Below are positions 206 to 4,726 of a DNA stretch of 64,000 bases, piece after piece. The notes under the pieces are model-generated. The model was not told the DNA's origin and searched no databases. It saw nothing but the letters and a program-made list of their open reading frames with translations. Every line of letters starts with the position of its first letter. Position 1 is the stretch's first letter. The translations under genes were made by a program, and so were the position numbers. Source of the stretch: an archaeon (GTDB lineage Archaea > Thermoproteota > Nitrososphaeria > Nitrososphaerales > Gagatemarchaeaceae); contig JAKAUC010000018.1 in the NCBI GenBank assembly GCA_021827865.1, positions 40,125 to 104,124 on the forward strand, read 5' to 3'.

Positions 206-721
206 ATGACACCGGGTGGAGCGTGCTTGAGCCCAAAGATGATATCTGCCCGCGGCCCCGGCCTTGGCATGGCCGAATCTGCGGTTCACAGATCTATGAA
301 GGCCATAGTCAGGCGGGAGCTCGAGCGCGAGCGCTTCGCGGTGGTGGAGGAGCCGGTCGTCCCTCCAGGTCGCAGGGTGTCCTGGACCGCCTATCGTCCG
401 GATCTTCTCGGATATAGGTCGGAGGGCGGGAAGGAGGAGGTCGTCCTCGTGGAATGTGAGACGCGCCCCCTGATGCGCAGGCTCGAAGCCAAGAAGTGCT
501 CGACGGTGTGGTTTCAGCCGCGCGTCTATCGGGGCGGGTCCGTCAGGAAGATACTCGCCGTGCCGCAGGGCAGGCTCCATCGGGTCGACATGAGAATCAG
601 GCGCAGCTGGGACATCTGGGTCCTCGGCCGAGACGCGACCATGGCGAAGTTTCCGGCCGTTCAGGAGAGTGCCGCCTGCGAGCCACGTTTCTCAAAATCG
701 ATAATCGAAGCAAGCGATTAA
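206..721 (+). CDS. Conserved hypothetical protein, possible PD-(D/E)XK-like nuclease fold
   Basis: ORF track; motif RPDLLGYR..VVLVECETRP resembles D-x(n)-ExE core. Start uncertain (internal Met codons at 242, 269, 296 also possible). Confidence 0.55.
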   Translation: MTPGGACLSPKMISARGPGLGMAESAVHRSMKAIVRRELERERFAVVEEPVVPPGRRVSWTAYRPDLLGYRSEGGKEEVVLVECETRPLMRRLEAKKCSTVWFQPRVYRGGSVRKILAVPQGRLHRVDMRIRRSWDIWVLGRDATMAKFPAVQESAACEPRFSKSIIEASD

Positions 722-779
722 TATGCGTCGTGTGTTTAACAAACCACTCGTCCGGCCAGGAGAAGGATGGATTCGCGGA

Positions 780-1000
780 GAAGAAGAGGTGCCGGGGAAA
801 GCCTCGGCGCCTGGTACCATCCGCGAGCGGGATGGTGGCGCGTAGAGCCGGGGAAACCCGGACTTCAACGAAGGCCAAACCGAGGGCGAACCGGGACGGC
901 GGCGGTGAAGGAACGCTACGAAGCCGCCGTCGGAGGAAAGCCACATCCCTCCTGAGAGCCGGGCGAGGCAACCAAATATCAGCCGGTTCTCACCTCTAGC
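780..1000 (+). ncRNA. Candidate structured RNA or 5' leader
   Basis: Consecutive perfect or near-perfect hairpins: 787-797/802-812, 816-822/830-836, 848-852/857-861 (GAAA loop), 895-903/923-931, 932-936/948-952, 953-962/983-992; alternative pairing 786-791/991-996. Overlapping ORFs do not look like proteins. Confidence 0.5.
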
Positions 1001-1014
1001 GGGGGACTTCGGAG

Positions 1015-1659
1015 ATGCTCTACAAGGACCGGGCGGACGCAGGAAAGCGCCTCGCGGGGGCCCTCCTGCATCTCAGGGGCGAGGACTTGGTCGTGCTCGG
1101 GATACCGAGGGGAGGCGTGGTGGTGGCGAACGAAGTTGCCAAGACGCTGGACGCCCCGCTGGACGTCGTGGTGACCAAGAAGATTGAAGCGCCAGGGGAA
1201 CCAGAGTATGCCCTCGGAGCGGTCACCCAGGAAGGAGAAGTGATGATGGACAGGCAGGCTGCGGAGTCCTTGGGGGCCAGTGCGGCGTACCTTGACTACC
1301 AGATTCGACTCAAGCGGGAAGAGGTGAAGGACAGGATGCAGAAGCTGCGGGGGTCAGCCCCCTACCCTAGACTGGAAGGCAAGGTGGTGGTCATAGTGGA
1401 CGATGGCATAGCCACCGGGAGTTCGGTGAGCGCGGCCGTGATGTCGGTGAAGAAGCGGGGCCCGAAGGATGTCATCGTCGCGGTTCCGGTGGCGCCGGCG
1501 GACGCGGTGCAGGCCCTCTCCGAAGACGGAACCAAGGTCGTCTGTGTTTCGACCCCAGGACCGTTCCTGGCCATAGGGGAGTTCTATGAAGACTTCGGGC
1601 AGGTTGAGGACATCGAAGTGAAGAGAATCCTTGACGAAAACGCTGCAAGGCGCCGCTGA
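1015..1659 (+). CDS. Phosphoribosyltransferase family protein
   Basis: PRPP-binding loop VVVIVDDGIATGSSVSAAV; N-terminal GIPRGGVVVANEVAK. Confidence 0.85.
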   Translation: MLYKDRADAGKRLAGALLHLRGEDLVVLGIPRGGVVVANEVAKTLDAPLDVVVTKKIEAPGEPEYALGAVTQEGEVMMDRQAAESLGASAAYLDYQIRLKREEVKDRMQKLRGSAPYPRLEGKVVVIVDDGIATGSSVSAAVMSVKKRGPKDVIVAVPVAPADAVQALSEDGTKVVCVSTPGPFLAIGEFYEDFGQVEDIEVKRILDENAARRR

Positions 1660-1701: not shown

Positions 1702-2376
1702 TTGGACGTCCGCAAGTTCGAGGGCGACCTCTACGAGCTCGCCGGCAGGGCCTGCCACGTCGACACCGAAGAAGTAAGATCCAAGGTGTTTGCCATCGCC
1801 GACGTCCTGGTCAACCTTTACAAAAAGAACCTCGTGAAGATCAACCATTCGGCCCTGGAGTTGGTGTGCGCCAGGGGCCTGATAAAGCAAGGCTACGATG
1901 TGAAAGTAGAGCACAGGCTGGACAAGATCCTGGTCTGCGATGTGATGGGGTCGAGGGGGGACGGGCCCCTCATAGTCGAGATAGAGACCGGGTTCATACC
2001 GCCCGAAGCGGCCCTGGAACCTTCGGCGTATGCGCGGAGCCGGATTGCCAGCAAGATATCCAGGTACAGCAGGTATGCGGGGAAGTTCGCCCTGGGGACA
2101 ACTCCCTCGTACATTCTGGACATCCCCGGGTTCTTCATCGGGGCTCCACGGAACAGGACCCACGAAGAGGCCGCACGGATCAAAGAGCTCACCGACGTCG
2201 CCTACAACAAGCCCGAGATCTCCATAGACGACCTTATGCAGGCGAGGCTTCACGCCGTGTTTCTGATAGATGTCGACTCCGGGGGTGTACAGGAAATCGA
2301 CCCCGAGGCCTACGATAGGATGGCGCTGGCCGTCCTGGATTGGCGCCGGAGTGTCCAAGGCTTAAATCCGCGCTGA
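1702..2376 (+). CDS. Conserved hypothetical protein, possible restriction-endonuclease-like fold
   Basis: TTG start; VCDVMGSRGDGPLIVEIETG resembles the motif in the 206-721 ORF. Confidence 0.6.
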   Translation: MDVRKFEGDLYELAGRACHVDTEEVRSKVFAIADVLVNLYKKNLVKINHSALELVCARGLIKQGYDVKVEHRLDKILVCDVMGSRGDGPLIVEIETGFIPPEAALEPSAYARSRIASKISRYSRYAGKFALGTTPSYILDIPGFFIGAPRNRTHEEAARIKELTDVAYNKPEISIDDLMQARLHAVFLIDVDSGGVQEIDPEAYDRMALAVLDWRRSVQGLNPR

Positions 2377-2450: not shown

Positions 2451-3068
2451 TTGCCGGACCAGGTGAGCGGCCGGGTCGCCCTCGCAAACGCCCTCTTCCG
2501 GATAGGAGCCCTCCGGTTCGGGAAGTTCAAGCTATCCAGCGGCAAGGTCAGTTCCTACTATCTGGACCTGAGGGTCGTTCCGAGCGACCCTGAAGCATAC
2601 GGTCTCGCTATATCGGCCTATCTTGCTGCTGCGAAGGGAATCGGAGAATCCAGCTTCGACGTAGTGGCGGGCGTCGCTACGGCTGGGGTGACCATCTCAT
2701 CTCCCCTCGCCTACGTCCTCAAGAAGCCGATGGTCTACGTGAGGAAGGAGGAGAAGGGGCACGGCCTCGGGAAGCTGGTCGAAGGTGCGGTCAACCCGGG
2801 ATGGCGGGCCTTGGTCATCGACGACCTGGTGACTACAGGAGGGAGCGTCATCTCGTCGGTGGAAGCGCTGAGAAGCGTGGGGTGTGTGGTCAGGGACGCC
2901 TTAGTTCTTGTGGACAGGCTGGAAGGAGGAGGGGCGAACCTCGCGCGGGCAGGGGTCAGGCTCAGCGCCTTCGCAGACATCACGGAGCTTGTCGAGACCC
3001 TCCACGGCCAGGGGAAGATCACCAAGGCGGACCTCCAGGCTGTGCTCAAGCAGATGGAAGGAAAATAG
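2451..3068 (+). CDS. pyrE: Orotate phosphoribosyltransferase
   Basis: FKLSSGKVSSYYLDLR and ALVIDDLVTTGGSV PRPP loop; operon with pyrD and pyrF. Confidence 0.92.
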   Translation: MPDQVSGRVALANALFRIGALRFGKFKLSSGKVSSYYLDLRVVPSDPEAYGLAISAYLAAAKGIGESSFDVVAGVATAGVTISSPLAYVLKKPMVYVRKEEKGHGLGKLVEGAVNPGWRALVIDDLVTTGGSVISSVEALRSVGCVVRDALVLVDRLEGGGANLARAGVRLSAFADITELVETLHGQGKITKADLQAVLKQMEGK

Positions 3069-3983
3069 ATGGAAGCTAGCGCAATCGAGGTACAAATGGG
3101 AAGTCTGCGCTTCGCCAACCCCACGGCGCTGGCCTCGGGCGTGCACGGAAGCTCCCTGTCGAAGGTGTTGCAGGCACTGAAGATGGGAGCAGGTGCGGCG
3201 GTCACGAAGTCGATCGGAGTGGTGCCGCGAGAAGGTTACCCAGACCCGACCATGGTCGAAGTCGAGGGCGGGATGGTCAATGCAGCCGGGCTCCCTAACC
3301 CTGGAGCGGCGATGTTCTCCGAGCAGCTGGCCGAGGTGGAAGGAAAGAGCCTCCCGATTGTAGTCTCAGTCTTCGGAGCAGACGAAGCGGAGTTCACATC
3401 TGCGGTCAGGGCCCTGGATGGGAACGACTTCGTCGCCTATGAGCTCAACCTAAGCTGCCCGCACGTGTCGGGGGTCGGCATCGAGGTCGGGCACCTCCCC
3501 GAGGAGGTGAGCAGGGTCACCAAGGCCGTGAAAGCTGCCACGGGCAAGCCGGTGTTCGCCAAGCTATCCCCCAACACGGAGAGACTGGTCGAGGTCGCCC
3601 AGGCGGCGGTGGATGCGGGGGCCGATGGCCTGACGGCCATCAACACGGTGAGGTCGTTCCCAATTGATATCGTGAAAGGGGGGCCCGCCCTCTCGCATGG
3701 CTTCGGTGGCCTGTCTGGGGCGGCGATAAGGCCCATAGCACTGCGCTGCGTCTACGAGCTGAGGGAGCAGTTGGGCGTCCCCATCGTCGGGTGCGGCGGG
3801 GTGGGGACATGGGAGGACGCGGTGCAGTTCTTCCTGGCTGGTGCGAACATGGTCCAGCTAGGTACCTCGACAATCAAGAGGTTTGACAGATTCAACGATG
3901 TCAACCTGGGGATCATCTCTTACATGAAGAGGAAGGGTTTTGCAAAGCTTGAAGACCTTGTCGGGCGGGCGCACGCCAGATGA
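3069..3983 (+). CDS. pyrD: Dihydroorotate dehydrogenase
   Basis: ELNLSCPHVSGVG, FAKLSPNTERLVEVAQAAVDAGADGLTAINTV, GCGGVGTWEDAVQFFLAGANMVQLGT. Confidence 0.93.
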   Translation: MEASAIEVQMGSLRFANPTALASGVHGSSLSKVLQALKMGAGAAVTKSIGVVPREGYPDPTMVEVEGGMVNAAGLPNPGAAMFSEQLAEVEGKSLPIVVSVFGADEAEFTSAVRALDGNDFVAYELNLSCPHVSGVGIEVGHLPEEVSRVTKAVKAATGKPVFAKLSPNTERLVEVAQAAVDAGADGLTAINTVRSFPIDIVKGGPALSHGFGGLSGAAIRPIALRCVYELREQLGVPIVGCGGVGTWEDAVQFFLAGANMVQLGTSTIKRFDRFNDVNLGIISYMKRKGFAKLEDLVGRAHAR

Positions 3984-4726
3984 ATTCTGACAGGATGGCG
4001 CACAGCTTCAGAGAGCGGGTCCTTGAAGCCTCGCGGCGGAGGGGCTCGAAGGTCGTCCTCAACCTCGACTTCGCCGGCCCCTACGAAGGAAGGCTCGACA
4101 ATGCTGTGCGAGTGCTCAACGAGACCAAGGAGCACCTGGCCGCGGTCAAGGTGAACCACCACCTGCTGCTTCCGTTCGGTCTCCAGGGCATAAGGGCTGT
4201 CATCGACATCTGCAAGGAAGAAGGGCTCCCCCTGATCGCGGACCTGAAGATGAACGACATAGAGTCCACCAACCTGAACATAGTCGACTCGCTCCTCGGT
4301 TACGGCTTCGACGCCGTCATAGCGAACCCCTTCGTAGGGAAGGCAGAGGGCCTGGGAAAGGCGATCGAGAGGATCCACTCCAAGAACGGAGGGATACTCC
4401 TCCTGGTCTACATGAGCCACAAGGGGGCGGACGAAGGGTATTCACTCCGCCTCGAAGGGGGCGAACCGCTGTACCGGGTATTTGCCAGAAGGGCAAAGGA
4501 GTGGGGTGCGGACGGGGTGATAGTCTCCGCCAAGTCCGCAGAGAAGATAGTCGAAACCAGGCAGATCGTGGGGAGGGAGTGTCTGATATTCTCGCCCGGA
4601 GTCGGTGTCCAGGGGGGCGACGCTTCCGCAGGCATCGCGGCGGGCGCGGACTTCGTCCTAGTGGGGAGGACGATCACAGAGTCTCTCGACCCGGCGAAGA
4701 CTGCAGCCGAGCTGAAGTCGGTCTAG
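3980..4726 (+). CDS. pyrF: Orotidine 5'-phosphate decarboxylase
   Basis: LIADLKMNDIESTN catalytic motif; SPGVGVQGGDASAGIAAGADFVLVGRTI; ATGA overlap with pyrD. Confidence 0.92.
   Translation: MNSDRMAHSFRERVLEASRRRGSKVVLNLDFAGPYEGRLDNAVRVLNETKEHLAAVKVNHHLLLPFGLQGIRAVIDICKEEGLPLIADLKMNDIESTNLNIVDSLLGYGFDAVIANPFVGKAEGLGKAIERIHSKNGGILLLVYMSHKGADEGYSLRLEGGEPLYRVFARRAKEWGADGVIVSAKSAEKIVETRQIVGRECLIFSPGVGVQGGDASAGIAAGADFVLVGRTITESLDPAKTAAELKSV

Follow-up and report, generated by a model that had tools for sequence, protein, structure and literature searches.

Computational analysis of a 64,000-nucleotide stretch of archaeal DNA (hereafter, the window) identified a gene for a structured noncoding RNA of about 222 nt (∼220 letters). 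It established how this RNA folds, that it is conserved, that it does not depend on the adjacent phosphoribosyltransferase (PRTase) gene, and that it is linked to, and shares absences with, c0, a gene for an uncharacterised protein. The existence of the structured RNA gene is close to certain, and there is good support for placing it in a new class of structured RNAs from archaea. Overall, the reading that we consider probable is that of a free-standing gene whose RNA is most likely a part or a regulator of a ribonucleoprotein containing c0. To our knowledge, few large structured noncoding RNAs have been described from archaea apart from rRNA, tRNA, RNase P, SRP and the modification guides. 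This element is a match for RNase P RNA in complexity, is encoded by a gene of its own, and reaches across the phylum that includes the ammonia-oxidising archaea. Since c0 provides a candidate protein partner, the function of the RNA is directly testable, through its binding by c0 and through cutting or protection of targets by the complex. Families (f), genera (g), genomes (G) and loci (L) are given anonymous labels throughout.

A sequence-only reading of this region had described positions 780-1000 as densely structured, with six consecutive hairpins and a complementary GAGGTG/CACCTC pair. All of these stems were found at their positions with full complementarity, and the interval 780-1012 folded better than dinucleotide shuffles (z = -4.3). 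The interval is therefore structured, but it cuts the element, as the RNA starts ∼35 nt further upstream and extends from P1 base to P1 base over 747-967. Folding of 746-972 gave a minimum free energy (MFE) of -128 kcal/mol as against -89 in shuffles (z = -8.7, with no shuffle as low), a far stronger signal because the earlier interval had omitted the 5′ strand (747-779). The MFE structure is a single closed four-way junction, in which a stem made of P1, P2 and P3 carries the arms P4/P5, P6 and P7 (Table 1).

Table 1. Features of the RNA locus, in coordinates of the window.
Feature	Position	Strand	Basis or details
Candidate TATA box ATTAATAT	717..724	+	30-23 nt before P1, position conserved
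Noncoding RNA gene	746..970	+	Covariance-model match 746-972, MFE fold z = -8.7, covariation
Closing stem, 5′ strands	747..769	+	Pair with 3′ strands 944..967
P1	747-756/958-967	+	Double changes in 7/10 pairs, sequence-only alignment
P2	757-762/949-954	+	Complementarity, MFE fold
P3	765-769/944-948	+	Complementarity, MFE fold
Arm P4 enclosing hairpin P5	772..827	+	P4 772-779/820-827, P5 787-797/802-812
Arm P6	828..882	+	828-830/880-882, 833-836/874-877, 841-852/857-870
Arm P7	885..942	+	Internal loop 885-892/935-942, stem 895-903/923-931
CCAAATATCA	972..981	+	Conserved only where the PRTase gene follows (alignment of f1 genomes)
PRTase gene	1015..1659	+	Pfam Pribosyltran, E = 9e-20
c0, ∼220 aa, uncharacterised, candidate RNA partner	1702..2376	+	Predicted fold, linkage, joint presence/absence

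Three of the six hairpins belong to this conserved fold: the first (787-797/802-812) is P5, the third (848-852/857-861) forms the end of P6, and the fourth (895-903/923-931) is the stem of P7. The other three are not conserved. The second (816-822/830-836) competes with the conserved P4 helix (772-779/820-827) and the fifth (932-936/948-952) with P2, P3 and P7, and both fail in several families, while the sixth (953-962/983-992) lies partly outside the RNA, with only 51% of cells pairing in relatives. A closing helix or switch through GAGGTG and CACCTC could not be sustained either, as it falls partly outside the RNA and the helices it needs are not conserved.

We then searched 101 related genomes at the DNA level and recovered copies that were 86-95% identical in the genus of the window, 82% identical in another genus of the same family, and 62-68% identical in further lineages. 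Twenty homologues were aligned on sequence alone. Covariation, which had been proposed as a check on the structure, was evident in this alignment, with compensatory double changes in 39 of the 75 pairs compared to 18.0 (sd 2.8) in shuffles. Pairing was seen in 91% of cells, and dropped to 34-40% when the 3′ partner was slid. Double changes were found in 6 of 8 pairs in P4 and 9 of 11 in P5, whose cells were paired at 96% and 90%, respectively, and 92-96% of cells in P1 to P4 were paired in relatives. In 38 model-aligned copies, 65 of the 75 pairs showed double changes, a figure that leans towards the structure because this alignment was fitted to it.

The internal loop of P7, GGC-NAA-CC / GG-AAA-GCC, is near-invariant, with its GGC/GCC pairs intact in 99% of cells, and the tip of P5, GGGAAAGCC, is conserved. 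Across 44 homologues, the columns of highest conservation were the base of P7 (GGGC-NAA ... G-AAGCCAC-T) and the P5 tip; the length of P6 varies. A translated open reading frame was rejected as an account of this conservation, as elements from the same genus (225-228 nt) differ by indels of 1-2 nt and yet keep the fold.

A first covariance model, applied to 131 relatives, detected the RNA in 35. A second model, which took in copies of greater divergence, extended this to further members of f8, some of f10, and f18 (same class), as well as f38 and f32 from elsewhere in the phylum. Together, the covariance models place the RNA in at least 10 families within the order and class, plus two that belong to other parts of the phylum. 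The RNA is common to many members of the ammonia-oxidiser lineage of archaea and also occurs in distant relatives. Searches of more than 40 genomes used stricter filters in which weak matches were lost (the f8 genome G095 was missed by the first model and later found), and the absence of the RNA from most f10 genomes may reflect a limit of the second model. Divergent copies were present at three places in G147 and at two each in G293, G046 and G121, which suggests paralogues; none of the G147 copies is near c0. G104 also has two copies, but these are identical and sit on duplicated contigs.

The RNA is a free-standing gene, independent of the PRTase. Of 44 loci, 32 have a TATA-like octamer 19-34 nt ahead of the point where the match begins, most often at -30/-29; a control stretch gave such an octamer in 8 of the 44. 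The 3′ flank is T-rich: T makes up 46% of its first ten bases and about 28% beyond them. In f1, CCAAATATCA is conserved 3′ of the RNA, at a distance of about 33-43 nt from the ATG of the PRTase, and its conservation pattern suggests that it could be the promoter of the PRTase gene.

Clustering of the genes neighbouring the RNA revealed c0 as the sole recurrent neighbour. The c0 protein had no match in Pfam, NCBIfam or PADLOC, no sequence match in the PDB, and none among phage, plasmid or defence libraries. Its AlphaFold model (pLDDT 91.7) has an order of secondary-structure elements that fits an alpha-beta-beta-beta-alpha-beta core fold, and Foldseek returned nuclease matches with weak E-values, from about 2e-3 (best) to 0.1. 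We therefore predict a PD-(D/E)XK nuclease fold for c0. Residues D80, E93, E95 and K118 are invariant in 18 homologues, giving an E-x-E motif rather than the E-x-K of the catalytic D and (D/E)xK signature of the superfamily. In one genome (G013:C1:7724-8252), an in-frame TAA interrupts c0 and the RNA is intact.

The RNA and c0 are linked in seven families (f1, f2, f3, f7, f8, f9 and f32). They are adjacent or one gene apart in f1, f2, f3, f7 and f9, and one gene apart in the f8 genome G095; in the distant family f32, the six RNAs detected span three genera, and every one is tail to tail with c0. The arrangements are of at least four kinds, namely RNA-PRTase-c0 on the same strand (f1), a c0-RNA tandem on the same strand (f2 and f3), convergent genes (f7 and f9), and c0 separated from the RNA by one gene and directed away from it (f8). 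The 3′ ends of the convergent RNA and c0 overlap in f32 and f7.

The two also tend to be present or absent together. In g1, the genus of the window, 13 genomes carried both and 16 carried neither, in raw counts that ignore kinship and include some incomplete genomes; the lone mismatch, G026, has only the RNA, which is truncated at a contig end. Records that had been retrieved through the PRTase alone were informative. Six of these (L033, L034, L035, L037, L038 and L039) carry both the RNA and c0. In L036, whose PRTase is 77% identical, the order PRTase-pyrE-pyrD-pyrF is kept, and both the RNA upstream and c0 downstream are missing. A single deletion is unlikely to explain this, because the PRTase between the two has been retained. 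Our best current hypothesis, which these patterns of linkage and joint loss favour at somewhat below an even chance, is that the RNA works with c0. The RNA would be transcribed from its own TATA-box promoter, fold into the stem-closed four-way junction with its near-invariant internal-loop arm, and act in trans in a ribonucleoprotein with c0, either as its RNA component or as an RNA that regulates it, and c0 may itself be an active nuclease. More tentatively, we suggest an unrecognised archaeal ribonucleoprotein in which a ∼220-nt four-way-junction RNA might direct, activate or scaffold a PD-(D/E)XK nuclease. Such a particle would have been overlooked because neither the RNA nor c0 matches a catalogued family.

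An alternative is that the RNA stands alone as a trans-acting housekeeping or regulatory RNA, like 6S or Y RNA, with other partners, and that its adjacency to c0 reflects inherited gene order. Some genomes do carry one without the other: the RNA was found with no c0 detected in G035, G060, G125 and G151, c0 was found with no RNA detected in most genomes of f10, f4 and f14, and the two are unlinked in f13, f18 and f10. An ancestral block, PRTase-LOG-HCDH-c0-RNA, is also visible in f3 and f8. We nevertheless regard this alternative as unlikely, though not greatly so, since linkage to c0 survives several arrangements and extends to a distant family, and both RNA and c0 are gone from around the retained gene in L036.

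The RNA might instead regulate c0, either as an antisense transcript at overlapping 3′ ends or as an RNA antitoxin for a nuclease toxin. The convergent genes of f32 and f7 would suit an antisense mechanism, but the RNA and c0 lie on the same strand in f1, f2 and f3, and most f10 genomes keep c0 with no detected RNA. Regulation of c0 is also at odds with the lack of phage, plasmid or defence-library matches to c0, and with an RNA that is not a repeat array. Type III toxin-antitoxin loci have a tandem-repeat RNA directly upstream of a ToxN-like gene, an organisation that was not seen here; the element is a single non-repetitive fold, with the PD-(D/E)XK-like protein in varying positions. Regulation of c0 by either route is thus improbable.

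Far less credible is a role in cis as a leader or riboswitch, either for the PRTase, as the sequence-only reading had envisaged, or for the pyr genes. This idea is prompted by the arrangement in f1, where the PRTase start is 48 nt downstream of the RNA and c0, pyrE, pyrD and pyrF come next. Outside f1, however, the RNA adjoins other genes. There is no PRTase near it in L018 and L020, and the one in L019 is encoded on the other strand. The RNA is located downstream of carB in f13, between genes for stress and CBS proteins in f17, and next to an apparent phosphate permease and PEP carboxylase in f38 (names read off the sequences), and it is tail to tail with c0 in f7, f9 and f32. A riboswitch or cis-leader would be expected at a constant 5′ UTR position before related genes, and the contexts here differ between families. 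The RNA has a TATA-like promoter of its own, and the helices of the supposed switch are not conserved. We rejected the PRTase leader because gene context varies; the PRTase is a neighbour rather than a target of the RNA.

Other neighbours of the RNA were also considered. Genes resembling pyrE, pyrD and pyrF lie 3′ of c0 (2451-4726 of the window, + strand), and carAB adjoin the RNA in f13. A link to pyrimidine genes would fit these two families, but other families break the pattern, and the association was judged probably coincidental. An association with tRNA genes was dismissed, with only scattered tRNAs around the RNA loci. In most g1 genomes, the RNA is immediately preceded by an open reading frame (206-721 of the window, + strand, 171 aa, no Pfam match) in which one segment, DLLGYRSEGGKEEVVLVECET, is PD-(D/E)XK-like; L036 lacks this frame. 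We discounted it as a partner of the RNA, as among the loci compared it occurs only in g1 and is in pieces in G028 and G029. Genes for PRTase, a LOG-like protein, a hydroxyacyl-CoA dehydrogenase-like protein and c0 surround the RNA in L176 (f8) and L116 (f3), in different orders.

Comparison with known RNA classes agreed with the earlier failure to place the element in a named family. Rfam 15 gave no gathering-threshold match in the whole window, no match at E ≤ 10 in 600-1200, and none within the element at E ≤ 5 in 12 homologue loci. The element was not matched by the archaeal RNase P model at E ≤ 10, by the Archaea_SRP model, or by any snoRNA model in Rfam for C/D or H/ACA guide RNAs. That the element is a permuted or variant form of RNase P RNA or SRP RNA is the least probable reading of all, as its sole attraction is a short word likeness (gaggaaag, ggccaaa) that had already been noted as coincidental and out of order, and the genome of the window has a canonical RNase P RNA (159 bits) on contig C11, apart from the element, and a canonical SRP RNA (118 bits) on another contig than the element. 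Separately, a weak, partial archaeal RNase P match of 19.6 bits, possibly due to chance, was seen at the start of the window's contig (G000:C7:54-102, L002), and in the f7 genome G064 about 0.9 kb separates the element from a canonical SRP RNA (L091:2617-2926, - strand). Among the results listed by a literature search, with subscription papers mostly outside its reach, none described an RNA of this kind.

Among known systems, archaeal RNase P RNA (RF00373) is similar in its size (about 220-290 nt), closing stem, multi-way junction and free-standing gene, and archaeal SRP RNA (RF01857) in being a free-standing structured RNA gene; in both cases, the element differs in having no covariance-model match while the canonical copy resides elsewhere. 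The PD-(D/E)XK proteins XisH, archaeal Hjc, NucS/EndoMS, Bax1 and Can2 share the predicted core fold of c0, which differs from them in lacking Pfam, NCBIfam and PDB sequence matches and in its weak structural E-values. We know of none of these proteins that is paired with a dedicated structured RNA. Also comparable are the orphan candidate structured RNAs, found by comparative genomics, with no assigned function and often trans-acting, in a 2010 survey that does not mention Nitrosopumilus or Cenarchaeum (PMC2864571). Unlike these, the element described here matches no Rfam model and comes with a candidate protein partner.
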